From: Methanoplanus endosymbiosus
Lineage (GTDB): Archaea; Halobacteriota; Methanomicrobia; Methanomicrobiales; Methanomicrobiaceae
NCBI RefSeq assembly: GCF_024662215.1
Contig: NZ_CP096115.1
Coordinates: 372,001-436,000, forward strand
Direction of reading: 5' to 3'
DNA length: 64,000 nt
Below, piece after piece: positions 50,855 through 56,162 of this stretch. A model generated the notes under the pieces. The model was not told the DNA's origin. It searched no databases and was given only the letters and a program-made list of their open reading frames with translations. Each line of letters opens with the position of its first letter. Position 1 is the first letter of the stretch. A program made the position numbers and the translations under genes.

Positions 50855-52828
50855 TTACAGGCTAAGTTCTTCCGGAAATAAATTTGTAACCGGATTCATT
50901 TCCGGTGTTTCTTTGGATTCTATCTCTTCATTGTCCGGAAATATCCGTTTTTCAGTACTTATCATTATGCTTTCCAGCATATCCTGATAGTCCATTCCTG
51001 CAAATCCTGCCATCTTTGCCAGATGTCCGTCCCAGCACCAGCCAGGATTGGGATTGGCTTCAAGAAGCCTTGGAGTACCGTTTTTATCGAGTCGCCAGTC
51101 AAAACGGGCATAATCGCGGCAGCCAAGCCTTGCATACAGCCTGATACAGCTGGCTGTAAGGAATCTCAATACATCTTCAGGAAGATCAGCCTTAATTGAT
51201 TTTAGATTCCAGTATGGACTTTCAGGATCCCATTTTGCCTCATAACCGCAGACTTTTGGCAGGTCCTCAGGAAGTGCAGAATAATCCTCTTCTATTACGG
51301 GGAGAACGATGTATTCATCCGGAAGATTGCCTATTATGCCTACGCTGATATCTTTTCCGTTTAAGAATTCCTCAACAAGAATTGGTTTTTCCGCTCCGGA
51401 AATTCTTCTGACATTGAGTATTGCATCCTGAAGTTCATTCACATCACTGCATATGCTCTCTTTTGTTATTCCAACACCTGAATCTCCAAAATTTGGTTTG
51501 ACTATTATCGGAAATTGTATTGGGAATTCAATAAATGAACTGTCTTCGGGGTTTATCATGAATGCTTTTGGAACAGGTATATCAAGCTCCTTTGCAATAC
51601 CACGCACAAGGGATTTGTCATAGCAGTATGCAAGACACTGAGGGTTTCCGCCGGAGTATTCTATATCCAGCATTTCAAGTAATGCAGGGATATGCAGCTC
51701 TTTTTTTGGGTCATTTGAAAAACCTTCATCACATAAATTTAATGCAAATTCAAACCTGTTTTTGTTTTTGATGAGGTAACTCATGAGATTTTTATGGCTG
51801 TTTACATAGGTGAATTTATAATTCTTAAGACCGGAAAGTGCATCTTTCAGCTGGGAAATAGTCTTAAAATCATCGTCATCGAATTTGCAGAGAGGTTTTA
51901 CCTTATCTTCCAGTTCCGGGTCACCCATAATCACAATTACTGATCTTTTTTTATTGGCCTGTTTCTTCTTAGGTGACCACTCTTTCTCTACAGATGAAGT
52001 TATGATGAGGCGGCGTGCCATCATACCGAGATCCTGCATTCTCTGTGATTCTGTTATAATGGGTTCATGTATCCGGATATTTTTAAAACCGCATTCTTTA
52101 AGCATGGAAGAGATCATTTCAGGGTTGTAAAGCCGTTCCGCATAGAACTGGTCAGCTATTACCCCCTTGCTGACATGAGTGATAACCTCACGGGTTACAA
52201 GCCTTTCATTATCGGAAGATAGTGACCTTTCCCTGCATACAAAATAATTTCTGTCTATCCATTCCCAGCTTCTCGGTGTGAAATTTTCTTTCAGATAATC
52301 TCCGTCTGATACATCCAGAAGTAATTTACCGCCGGGTTTTAGTGTTCTGAATACTTCAAGCAGGACTTTTTTGTCGTCATCGCATGACTCAAAATATCCA
52401 AAGCTGTTTCCCGGAATAATAATACAGTCAAATGTGTCAGTGGAATAGGAAAGCTTTCTTGCATCGCCTTCCCTGAAGTTAATGCTGTAGCCATCTTTTG
52501 CAGACTGTTTTTTTGCCCTGTTTATCAGATAATGAGATCTGTCAAGACCATAGAGATTTTTAAAACCCCTTGCTGCAAGCTCAACTGAATGCCGGCCCTG
52601 TCCACAGCATAGATCAAGAATTATATCATCTTTTGAGATATCCATCAGAGAGATAAAGCTCTCAGTCTCTTTTGATGTAATTTCATTGTCATCAACAACA
52701 TCACCGTCTGTTCTGAGATAATTGGCATTGAATATCTCTCTCCACCATTCTGCCCGGACATAACTTTCAAGGCTTTCAACCGGACCAAGAAATGTAGTGA
52801 TTCTGGATTTACCTTTCGATTTATTCAT
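50855..52828 (-). CDS. methyltransferase / D-Ala-D-Ala-ligase-like ATP-grasp fusion
   Basis: 657 residues in two parts. Residues 1-290: class I SAM methyltransferase, with motif I LDLCCGQGRHS (71-81), GLDRSHYL, and FDCIIIPGNSFGYF. Residues 300-640: ATP-grasp ligase resembling D-Ala-D-Ala ligase (FPIIVKPNFGDSGVGI, VEEFLNGKDISVGIIG, RLLEANPNPGWCWDGHLAKMA). Methanogens of this group have no peptidoglycan, so the ligase likely joins amino acids or similar groups into another compound that is also methylated. The substrate is unknown. It follows the two prenyl-synthase-like genes after 270 bases. Confidence 0.85.
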   Translation of the reverse strand: MNKSKGKSRITTFLGPVESLESYVRAEWWREIFNANYLRTDGDVVDDNEITSKETESFISLMDISKDDIILDLCCGQGRHSVELAARGFKNLYGLDRSHYLINRAKKQSAKDGYSINFREGDARKLSYSTDTFDCIIIPGNSFGYFESCDDDKKVLLEVFRTLKPGGKLLLDVSDGDYLKENFTPRSWEWIDRNYFVCRERSLSSDNERLVTREVITHVSKGVIADQFYAERLYNPEMISSMLKECGFKNIRIHEPIITESQRMQDLGMMARRLIITSSVEKEWSPKKKQANKKRSVIVIMGDPELEDKVKPLCKFDDDDFKTISQLKDALSGLKNYKFTYVNSHKNLMSYLIKNKNRFEFALNLCDEGFSNDPKKELHIPALLEMLDIEYSGGNPQCLAYCYDKSLVRGIAKELDIPVPKAFMINPEDSSFIEFPIQFPIIVKPNFGDSGVGITKESICSDVNELQDAILNVRRISGAEKPILVEEFLNGKDISVGIIGNLPDEYIVLPVIEEDYSALPEDLPKVCGYEAKWDPESPYWNLKSIKADLPEDVLRFLTASCIRLYARLGCRDYARFDWRLDKNGTPRLLEANPNPGWCWDGHLAKMAGFAGMDYQDMLESIMISTEKRIFPDNEEIESKETPEMNPVTNLFPEELSL

Positions 52829-53098: not shown

Positions 53099-54571
53099 TT
53101 ATCTGACATCAGAATCATTCAGGCTTTTTTTCATATCAAGCGAAATCTTAGTGCATCTGCCTGCAATTTCGGTTTCAAAATCCGTAACCAGATTATAATT
53201 CCGGCCAGTGAGGCAGAGCTGCCGGTTTGTTTCATTATCAGGGATGTTCATCTCCGAAAACAGTTTACAGAGATCTTCTGTACGGTTTTTTTCAGAAAGG
53301 ACTTTTAATGACTGAAATATAGAGGCCATATAAAGATTGCAGGCATCTTTTAACTCCGGATAATCAATAAATGATGTACGTGATATTGCCAGCATCAAAA
53401 TTTCAATGGGATGGTGATTCAGAGGATTTGCTCCGAATTTATAATAATTAAAAGCTGTAATATTTCCATTTTTGGTGTCTTCCGGAAAATCACGGAGATC
53501 GTCAGGGAGCTGAAATATATATCCTGATCTAAGAGTATGTACCAGAAATTTTTCGGTTATCCGGTATTCTGCAAGAATTGCAGGTATTATTCTTGTATAG
53601 GCTCCTTTCAGTGCAGAGTTGATATACAGATCTTCATCTCTGAGGATATTGCCGTATCCCCATTCTGCACCTTTTAATGAAGCATCTGCAATGGCCGAAT
53701 ATGCCTTTGCAAGCATTTTCCATCTATTTTCCGGCAGTTCATCACGCATTTTAATCAGTGCATTTTCGGTATATGCCATAAGATAATTTTCAGATAACTC
53801 TATATCATCATCTCTGGTGCTCAACAATATATTTGAAATATTTCTGTAGTATTTCTCTTTCTCTTCTGAAGAGTAGTCAGGATCATCAATGATTTCGTCA
53901 AAGAGATAGGTTATACCATAGCAGGAGCCAAGAACAATTTTTTGGCGTAAATTGCTGCTTTTGCTGTCATAACCAAATTTTACAACTCCAAACATAGAAC
54001 CGATATATTTTGCAGACAGCCCTTTTTTAATGTAAGATTCCGGACAGTTTCTGATAAATTCTGTAATTTCATCTTTGATAAGTGCGGTATCATCAACGGA
54101 GATTCCTGCCATTTCACAGCAGATTTCAGCAAGTTTTTCCGGGTCTAAAAGTTCATTATTTCCGCTTATCTTTCCGGAATTTCCGAACCTGAAATATTTA
54201 TCTTTCAGATCTTTTTTAAAGGCTTTAATCTCTTTATTCTGCCTGATTATTCCTTTATCCCTGACTGAGGCATACCTGTAATAATTTATAGCTTCACTGT
54301 ACATTTCAGAATATTTTATCAGACTGTCTGTATCTGTTTTGAAGATTTTATCTGTGGATTTTAGGGCATTGTGTATAAAATACCGCTTTTTAAGCCATCT
54401 TCTCTCAGACTGGATAATTTTAGTGATAATTTCCGGATTATATGCAGTCCTGCCATAATTCAGCAGATCATCAAAATCATGGAGGAGATATCTGTGGGAT
54501 ACATCATACAGGCTTTCATCTTCGTTATATCCGTTAAGGTTATCCAGTACTGCCTGAATCATTACTGCCAC
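53099..54571 (-). CDS. prenyl-synthase-like protein, paralogue B
   Basis: 490 residues. The C-terminal part has isoprenoid-synthase motifs: DEIIDD (225-230, first aspartate-rich region) and DDLRD (357-361, second), plus GAYTRIIPAI. The N-terminal 200 residues are a helical extension. The usual IPP-binding GKxxR is not intact (AKYIGS at 187-192). It is clearly related to the next gene upstream by matching segments such as AYNPEI/EYDPEI. GTG 54571 or ATG 54562 starts it. Isoprenoid chemistry is inferred from the fold motifs; a terpene-synthase or non-elongating role is possible. Confidence 0.65.
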   Translation of the reverse strand: MAVMIQAVLDNLNGYNEDESLYDVSHRYLLHDFDDLLNYGRTAYNPEIITKIIQSERRWLKKRYFIHNALKSTDKIFKTDTDSLIKYSEMYSEAINYYRYASVRDKGIIRQNKEIKAFKKDLKDKYFRFGNSGKISGNNELLDPEKLAEICCEMAGISVDDTALIKDEITEFIRNCPESYIKKGLSAKYIGSMFGVVKFGYDSKSSNLRQKIVLGSCYGITYLFDEIIDDPDYSSEEKEKYYRNISNILLSTRDDDIELSENYLMAYTENALIKMRDELPENRWKMLAKAYSAIADASLKGAEWGYGNILRDEDLYINSALKGAYTRIIPAILAEYRITEKFLVHTLRSGYIFQLPDDLRDFPEDTKNGNITAFNYYKFGANPLNHHPIEILMLAISRTSFIDYPELKDACNLYMASIFQSLKVLSEKNRTEDLCKLFSEMNIPDNETNRQLCLTGRNYNLVTDFETEIAGRCTKISLDMKKSLNDSDVR

Positions 54572-54617: not shown

Positions 54618-56162
54618 TTAATGGCCGAAAACGGGATTTTTACTCCACCCGCCCCGTATATTAACGGCAATTTCCGAATGTATTTTTGCAGTTTCAGCTT
54701 CAATGTCGATAATGACATCACTGCATCCGGCAATCATTAGAAGTTCTTCTTTGATTTTTCCATCCGGAAAATTCATCTCATTAAAAAGTATATTAAGGTC
54801 TTCTTCACCTGATTTGAGCTTTAATAGCCGGATTGAATGCGTTATCCGCATAATCCAGAGGTCTTCTGCATCAGGAATATCTTTCAGATTTTCAGCAGAC
54901 ATTCTGCTTACTGCTGCAAGGAAAATTTCCACCGGATGGATCTCCTGTTCTGTTTTGCCATAGCGGAAATAATTGAAAGGCGTTATACTGCCTTCTGTTA
55001 TGTCATCAGTTATATCCCGGAGGTCATCTGTAAGCTGATATATCAGTCCGCCTCTCATGCAGTGTGACAAAAATATCTCATCAATTTCATGACCACCAAG
55101 AATTGCCGGAATAATTCTTGTATATGCTGCTTTTATAGCGGCAATTGAGTATATCTCACTATCTGTAAGCGGTGTACTGTAATTCCACTGAGAACCTGCC
55201 TCAGTTGCTTCTGCAATAGCAAGATATGACTGTGCAACCATACTGCCTCTTTTATCATCAAGAATATCACACATTCCGGCAAATGCAGATTCTGAAAAAG
55301 CCATCAGCGGATCTGAGGAATAAATAATTTCATTGGATTTTCCGGCGTTTAAAATATTCAGGACATTTTGGTAGTAATCCTCTTTCTCAGATTTTCTGTA
55401 TTCTGCATCGTCCAGTATGTCATCAAAGAGATATGTTGCCGCAAAAAAACCCGCCAGCCTCAAAATATTATTGTAATCCGGATTTTCAGCTGATTTTGAA
55501 AAGAATATTACCCCAATAATGGATCTCATGAATTTTCCGAATATTCCATTTTCAAGGTATTTTTTCGGGCAGATATCAATATATTCATGAATGTACGAAT
55601 ATAACCAAAGGAAAGACTCTTCATCATTTTTTCTGATGATCTTCTTTGAAATTCTGATAAATTCTTCAGGCGAGTCCAGAAAATTCTGCCTGTTATCTTT
55701 TTTTCCCGGAAGTAGTATTTCTATCCACTCTTTAAACTCTTCAGGATTTATATTCGGATTTGAAGCTATGCCCTGATCCCTCATCACTGCGAATCTGAAT
55801 AATCTATCTTCTGCCTTTAAAATTTCTTTTTCCCTCAATCTCTCCTCATTGTTGAGGCTGAATTTCCGGTCAGAAAAAATAACAATCTCTCTTAAGTATT
55901 TAAGTTTCTGAAGCCTTTTGCGTTCTTTTGTAAGCCTGCCTAAGATTATCTCAGGATCATATTCATTCTCCATGAATGCAGTAAGATTTTGATAATCTTC
56001 TTCTGCATATTGATATGAAATTTTAAATATGTCATTCTCCGGTTTTTCCCCTAAAAGAGTGTCCATAAGCTCTTTCATCATAAATAATCCTGTTATCCCA
56101 TTAAGGGTATTGTTACTGATGTTATTAACAATCTTGTTTTTTAAGAGAAATTCCACTTCCAA
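54618..56162 (-). CDS. prenyl-synthase-like protein, paralogue A
   Basis: 514 residues. FARM-like DDILDD (247-252), SARM-like DDLRD (379-383), a GKFMRS element (209-214) that resembles the IPP-binding GKxxRP, and AAYTRIIPAI. The N-terminal 200 residues are helical and not seen in normal 300-350-residue archaeal prenyltransferases. The longest start is TTG 56162, about 40 bases below a TATA-like AATTATAATATTTTT (about 56196-56210, minus strand). An alternative ATG at 56081 (AGGAT before it, aligning with the paralogue start) is equally likely. It probably heads an operon with paralogue B. Confidence 0.67.
   Translation of the reverse strand: MEVEFLLKNKIVNNISNNTLNGITGLFMMKELMDTLLGEKPENDIFKISYQYAEEDYQNLTAFMENEYDPEIILGRLTKERKRLQKLKYLREIVIFSDRKFSLNNEERLREKEILKAEDRLFRFAVMRDQGIASNPNINPEEFKEWIEILLPGKKDNRQNFLDSPEEFIRISKKIIRKNDEESFLWLYSYIHEYIDICPKKYLENGIFGKFMRSIIGVIFFSKSAENPDYNNILRLAGFFAATYLFDDILDDAEYRKSEKEDYYQNVLNILNAGKSNEIIYSSDPLMAFSESAFAGMCDILDDKRGSMVAQSYLAIAEATEAGSQWNYSTPLTDSEIYSIAAIKAAYTRIIPAILGGHEIDEIFLSHCMRGGLIYQLTDDLRDITDDITEGSITPFNYFRYGKTEQEIHPVEIFLAAVSRMSAENLKDIPDAEDLWIMRITHSIRLLKLKSGEEDLNILFNEMNFPDGKIKEELLMIAGCSDVIIDIEAETAKIHSEIAVNIRGGWSKNPVFGH

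Follow-up and report, generated by a model that had tools for sequence, protein, structure and literature searches.

A conserved fusion of a class I methyltransferase and a Ddl-like ATP-grasp ligase, shared by methanogens and many bacteria

What use could an archaeon without peptidoglycan make of an enzyme resembling D-alanine-D-alanine ligase (Ddl), and why would that enzyme be joined to a methyltransferase? The question is raised by a gene of Methanoplanus endosymbiosus lying at 50855-52828 of the 64,000-nucleotide stretch analysed here (hereafter the window). An initial annotation read it as a SAM methyltransferase and a Ddl-type ATP-grasp domain in one protein that would make a methylated peptide-like bond in some compound other than D-Ala-D-Ala. 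We find that it is a widespread and strongly conserved fusion of two known enzyme kinds, undescribed as far as searches of the open PMC library show. No paper on it was found there; the amidoligase survey of Iyer et al. 2009 could well include the architecture, and the accessible part of a study of archaeal fusions does not mention it (PMC11237513).

The fusion gene and its carriers

Both motifs quoted in the initial annotation are present, LDLCCGQG at residues 71-78 and ANPNPGWCWDGHLAKMA at residues 591-607, and Pfam recognises Methyltransf_25 (residues 70-167, E 1e-19) and Dala_Dala_lig_C (residues 433-622, E 8.6e-25) in one open frame (Table 1), which bears out the reading of two enzymes in a single protein. 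The gene occurs once in the genome, a single contig of 3.16 Mb. The copy of a relative of the same genus (L114) is 96% identical, and the codons that differ between the two are mostly synonymous in the methyltransferase half (46 against 11 that change the amino acid) as well as in the ligase half (52 against 17). As the halves are also similar in GC and GC3 and the frame is open, the fusion is real and under selection. A chimera, or a frameshift or sequencing error joining two genes, as the annotation had envisaged, is excluded by the uninterrupted frame, by the same arrangement in 72 of 76 loci and by the synonymous excess in both halves.

Table 1. Features of the fusion gene in window coordinates
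Feature	Position	Strand	Basis
Complete ORF, methyltransferase-ATP-grasp fusion	50855..52828	(-)	ATG start, 657 aa, no internal stops
Class I SAM methyltransferase domain, residues 14-285	51974..52789	(-)	Pfam; AF2 model of residues 1-285; fold matches
SAM-binding motif I, residues 70-80 (ILDLCCGQGRH)	52589..52621	(-)	53-sequence alignment
Putative methyltransferase substrate cap, residues 186-234	52127..52273	(-)	53-sequence alignment; alignment with the NmbA 9ri2 cap
Linker, residues 286-292, weakly conserved	51953..51973	(-)	Column conservation
Ddl-fold ATP-grasp ligase, residues 293-634 (pre-ATP-grasp and ATP-grasp)	50927..51952	(-)	Pfam; AF2 model; VIA Z 25-29
Residues 302-320, at the place of the Ddl first-amino-acid motif	51869..51925	(-)	Alignment; role inferred
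Residues 575-602, catalytic/metal end and PNPGWCWDGH loop	51023..51106	(-)	Alignments

A homologue scan of 84,980 species genomes found 79 loci, of which almost all show 47-69% identity. Their carriers are mostly bacteria, with methanogens and Loki- and Sigynarchaeota besides; according to record titles, which mostly belong to bins and may be wrong, the bacteria include Spirochaetales, Planctomycetota, Nitrospirota, Omnitrophota, Verrucomicrobia, Desulfobulbaceae and Gammaproteobacteria, among others. The four exceptions to the single frame, among the 76 loci checked as ORFs, are three copies interrupted by contig ends (L101, L103 and L113) and one stand-alone ligase (L109). Another three of the 79 (L065, L070 and L084) gave no ORF match; a longer ORF overlapping the fusion was probably retained instead, and their tblastn matches span the protein end to end. 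In the order of the window's organism, 48 of 150 genomes have a long match and 3 more have fragments, while 43 of 294 genomes of its phylum match at E<=1e-100. Counting the centre genome each time, the fusion was found in 6 of 274 genomes from the class of a gammaproteobacterial bin (G390); for the phyla of a Nitrospirota bin (G389) and a Desulforhopalus (G393), the counts were 7 of 198 and 7 of 247.

A tree of 89 proteins was built after excluding 13 of the 76 ORF-matched loci (L035 rather than L075, compared with the neighbour set below) and adding 25 loci from genome searches and the window copy. The latter and three relatives of the same family stand beside two Spirochaetota copies (SH-aLRT 91), and the methanogen copies are scattered over several separate places. 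These two features make repeated transfer of the whole fusion between lineages likely, though not proven. The framing of the gene as an oddity of a peptidoglycan-free archaeon therefore fails, since the majority of the carriers are bacteria and the window copy groups nearest to spirochaetal ones.

Several related arrangements were met along the way. One genome (G043) holds two full copies with equal scores about 19 kb apart (L116 and L117) and a third, broken one; in another (G007, L118) the fusion is broken, with matches to residues 1-343, including a stop, and to residues 483-632. The same subtype of ATP-grasp ligase (46-48% identity) also occurs on its own, at L086:6840-7961, about 4 kb from the fusion, and at L109:2310-3299. 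At L185:12167-14314, close to the fusion, lies a gene for a protein of 716 aa with a Ddl-type ATP-grasp domain of its own (145 bits) and a C-terminal half that Pfam does not match. As for mobile or defensive cargo, viral contigs held no relative of the fusion; 72,556 plasmid records gave no full-length match and four partial, single-domain ones, three neighbourhoods of which were uninformative; and the one PADLOC match, mad2, is confined to residues 32-182, that is, to the common methyltransferase fold.

In an alignment of 53 sequences (52 of the 79 loci and the window copy), mean column identity is 65% and 100 columns are invariant, of which the methyltransferase contributes 46 and the ligase 54. 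In the linker region (residues 281-292) the commonest residue has a mean frequency of 0.45, compared with about 0.70 in each domain. Furthermore, distances computed separately for the two halves correlate across the 89 proteins (r 0.84). Some 630 shared residues and 100 invariant columns over archaea and many phyla indicate that an exact function is required. The full-length AF2 model (pLDDT 82.7) has a pTM of 0.55 and so does not fix the mutual placement of the domains. Among the NCBIfam families listed, the fusion reaches neither the Ddl cut-off nor that of any specific methyltransferase, and no close match of known function, the annotation's other refuting condition, was found.

Two catalytic halves with distinct relatives

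The ligase half (residues 293-634) is modelled by AF2 as a complete Ddl fold, with VIA Z of 25-29 to Ddl and VanA structures, and VanA and Ddl are also its best solved matches. K405, K444, R575, D577, E590 and N592, which we take from their counterparts in Ddl to be the ATP-grasp residues, are invariant in the 53 sequences. Upstream, G302-D303 is invariant and K311-P312 and F316-D317-x-D319-D320 are nearly so, in a segment (residues 302-320) that presumably stands at the position of Ddl's first-amino-acid motif; the PNPGWCWDGH loop is near-invariant too. In a HMMER alignment with Bacillus anthracis Ddl, the invariant W533 is aligned with the Tyr of NAKY and the invariant G601 with the Ser of PGMTQAS (the PGMTxxS loop); both Ddl residues belong to the D-Ala binding site. 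The invariant ATP-grasp residues on the one hand, and W533, G601 and the acidic pre-ATP-grasp motif on the other, indicate that the phosphoryl-transfer machinery is retained and the substrate side altered. The score on TIGR01205, the D-alanine-D-alanine ligase family, is 106.7 bits, far short of the cut-off of 245.65. Judged from its sequence, the ligase half is thus Ddl-like yet not Ddl. For NF053643, an archaeal pseudomurein ATP-grasp family, the stand-alone relative L109 scores 41.8 against a cut-off of 500, and the family lies outside the best 25 of the 86 listed for the window protein. Finally, the window's genome contains no match to a Mur ligase above cut-off and one weak match of 20.6 bits, which supports the earlier view that D-Ala-D-Ala is an improbable product.

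The other half is a class I SAM-dependent methyltransferase by both its motif I, in which D72, C75, G76, G78, R79 and H80 are invariant in the 53 sequences, and its Rossmann fold (residues 1-285 folded alone by AF2, pLDDT 88.9, pTM 0.86). Its predicted cap carries the invariant residues W188-E189-W190, R199-E200-R201, R213-E214, D226, Y229 and E231-R232. Among solved structures, 9ri2 gives the best sequence match, which spans core and cap (profile E 5.8e-32, positions 22-249 of the profile). This structure is NmbA, whose methylation target is the cysteine nitrogen of bacillithiol; according to the accessible text describing it, the bacillithiol pathway is lacking in archaea and AlphaFold mispredicts the NmbA cap (PMC12719100), a caution for the fusion's cap, which is known from an AF2 model only. 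By fold, methyltransferases of unstated function (3d2l, 1wzn and 1y8c) are nearest and rank above NmbA; further neighbours are CypM, NmbA itself, amino-sugar N-methyltransferases and glycine-sarcosine N-methyltransferase (GSMT), together with some C- and O-directed enzymes. The daptide methyltransferase family is a neighbour in sequence, and the score on NF051855 (glycine/sarcosine N-methyltransferase) is 56.6 bits, below the cut-off of 350. Given this resemblance to amine N-methyltransferases in both sequence and fold, N-methylation of an amine would be the likeliest reaction. The proposed methylated peptide-like bond was to that extent imprecise: with such relatives, an amino group is a likelier methyl target than the bond.

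Gene neighbourhood and proposed product

Our main reading, to which we give a probability of about one half, is a bifunctional enzyme that makes a small, soluble, N-methylated and dipeptide-like metabolite, which hydrolysis can break down again. The ligase half would use ATP to activate the carboxylate of one amino-acid-like substrate as an acyl-phosphate, in the manner of Ddl, and would couple it to a second amino-acid-like unit through the latter's amine. The methyltransferase half would transfer one or more methyl groups from SAM to an amino group, either of the substrate or of the product. Unrelated amide hydrolases encoded beside the fusion in some bacteria (an AstE/AspA-type deacylase, an M42 aminopeptidase and an M32 carboxypeptidase) would recycle the product. 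While the chemistry class of the fusion is reasonably predicted, we infer the activity itself, a small-molecule rather than protein substrate, the order of the steps and the identities of the amino acids.

Neighbouring genes were collected from 80 loci (13 of the 76 ORF-matched loci L035-L113, near-copies or truncated, were excluded and 17 genome-search loci added), and genes more than 3.5 kb from the fusion served as controls, 110 of the 290 being drawn at random for the Pfam scan. In an unselected Pfam scan of 110 adjacent genes, AstE/AspA is the commonest family (7), followed by MFS (4), with M32 at 3; AstE/AspA is outside the top 25 families listed for the 110 control genes. With our own profiles, which were derived from the neighbours themselves for families partly chosen after the loci had been viewed, AstE/AspA occurs in 7/110 adjacent versus 1/290 control genes (p 0.0006), M42 in 3/110 versus 0/290 (p 0.02) and M32 in 3/110 versus 1/290 (p 0.065). 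None of the three families accounts for 97 of the 110 adjacent genes, and on the tree their labels change at least seven (AstE/AspA), two (M42) and two (M32) times. The deacylase gene lies on the same strand as the fusion and 13-65 bp away in L062, L073, L083, L093, L102 and L108, and is convergent with it in L164; an M32 carboxypeptidase gene follows the fusion in L099, L168, L192 and L194. In L048, L053 and L055 the neighbour of the fusion is an M42-type protein, and M42-type neighbours hit no NCBIfam model at 1e-5: that of L048 scores 23.1 bits on Peptidase_M42, slightly below the 23.2 cut-off, and that of L053, which has no significant Pfam match, is so labelled from its likeness to the L048 protein and from motifs read by eye. 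RimK-type ATP-grasp genes were also seen next to an AstE/AspA gene near the fusion in L052, L072 and L091.

Most copies, those of the window and the methanogens among them, lack a conserved partner gene, and in the methanogens the fusion is solitary. No conserved methanogen operon was found either, the neighbours being kept only in L114, and Methanosarcinaceae copies lie partly beside polymerase IV-like and dapA/dapB-like genes (ORFs judged by eye). The window's genome has no AstE/AspA match, so that recycling in this organism would need other enzymes. Within the window, two proteins that look related (490 and 514 aa) are encoded in tandem at 53099-54571 and 54618-56162 (-), the latter with a sub-threshold polyprenyl synthetase match (E 0.005); among 12 methanogen regions, only L114 shares the pair.

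As to the role of the product, a compatible solute or osmoprotectant is our leading guess, and a tentative one. In uncharged amino-acid compatible solutes the amino and carboxyl charges are masked, as stated in the accessible part of PMC1224877. The ion-transport families in the 110-gene tally are CorA (2), the sodium/hydrogen exchanger family (3) and CitMHS (2); in addition, K+/H+ antiporter-type genes are among the neighbours, a Na/Ca exchanger gene belongs to the L053 cluster, and MscS adjoins the fusion in L185 and is nearby in L184. The gene ablB is present in 35/48 genomes with the fusion and 42/102 without (p 0.0004), a comparison confounded by kinship, and a BCCT betaine transporter, weakly, in 12/48 and 12/102 (p 0.055). 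The adjacent CorA, K+/H+ antiporter-type, MscS and Na/Ca-exchanger genes and the ablB co-occurrence weakly favour a solute role. Close whole-protein relatives in many bacteria and archaea suggest a widespread methylated small compound. More speculatively still, the fusion might be a one-gene pathway for undescribed N-methylated, possibly quaternary and betaine-like, dipeptide solutes, recycled by dedicated amide hydrolases and common to methanogens, Asgard archaea and many bacterial phyla.

Other readings of the same protein deserve consideration. The two domains could act on unrelated substrates and merely be co-expressed as a single chain, as the stand-alone ligases of L109 and L086 might suggest, all the more since a search of L109's genome for the methyltransferase of a split pair gave no close match (best 30% identity); the chain intact in 72/76 loci over several phyla and the divergence of its halves in step fit coupled reactions better, and we hold this independence for distinctly unlikely. 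A low-molecular-weight thiol could also be the product, as the analogy of N-methyl-bacillithiol would suggest. This reading would agree with NmbA being, among solved structures, the closest in sequence to the methyltransferase half and with the fact that glutathione synthetase is an ATP-grasp enzyme too. It appears improbable given the Ddl type of the ligase half, the archaeal carriers, for which no bacillithiol pathway is reported in the accessible text of PMC12719100, and the adjacent-gene Pfam tally shown, in which Redoxin/AhpC-TSA (2/110) is the only recurrent thiol-related entry.

Tailoring of a peptide or protein, RiPP-like or by C-terminal tagging, with the ligase adding an amino acid and the methyltransferase capping it, would recall the RimK-type ATP-grasp ligases that modify proteins (accessible part of PMC12239564) and the peptide-acting CypM and daptide methyltransferases met among the neighbours in fold or sequence. 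The ligase, however, is of Ddl and not RimK type, and the ORF lists, which start at 60-80 aa and miss shorter precursors, showed no precursor-peptide gene recurring next to the fusion, so that we consider tailoring unlikely. A true D-Ala-D-Ala or D-Ala-D-X ligase with an accessory methyltransferase, serving the cell wall or glycopeptide resistance, is very improbable: its fold, its best solved matches and the bacterial nature of most carriers, which have walls of their own, speak for it, but the low TIGR01205 score, the replaced Tyr and Ser, an archaeal carrier genome with no Mur ligase above cut-off and the lack of adjoining wall genes in the loci checked by eye speak against it. Should the N-methylated dipeptide of our main reading indeed be made, a whole class of metabolites has been overlooked in methanogens and in sediment and groundwater bacteria, and it would come from a single gene with no obligate partner.

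Comparison with known systems

With Ddl, the ligase half shares the whole fold of residues 293-634, the ATP- and metal-binding residues and the conserved arginine. It differs by a score far under the curated cut-off, by W533 and G601 in place of Tyr and Ser, by its own pre-ATP-grasp motif (GDP..D.VKP...FDxDDF) and by the attached methyltransferase. While the alignment of the methyltransferase half with NmbA extends over core and cap, NmbA is a stand-alone enzyme and lacks the W188-E189-W190 of the fusion's cap. CypM and GSMT share the class I fold, and their specificity is for small-molecule or peptide amines, but neither is fused to a ligase. Finally, N-acetylglutaminylglutamine amide (NAGGN) is made by a synthetase combining GNAT and ATP-grasp domains, in a system that has an M42 hydrolase. 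The likeness to our protein is one of logic only, an amine-capping domain being fused to an ATP-grasp ligase, with an M42-type gene beside the fusion in some loci, whereas here a methyl group would take the place of the acetyl and the ligase is of Ddl type.
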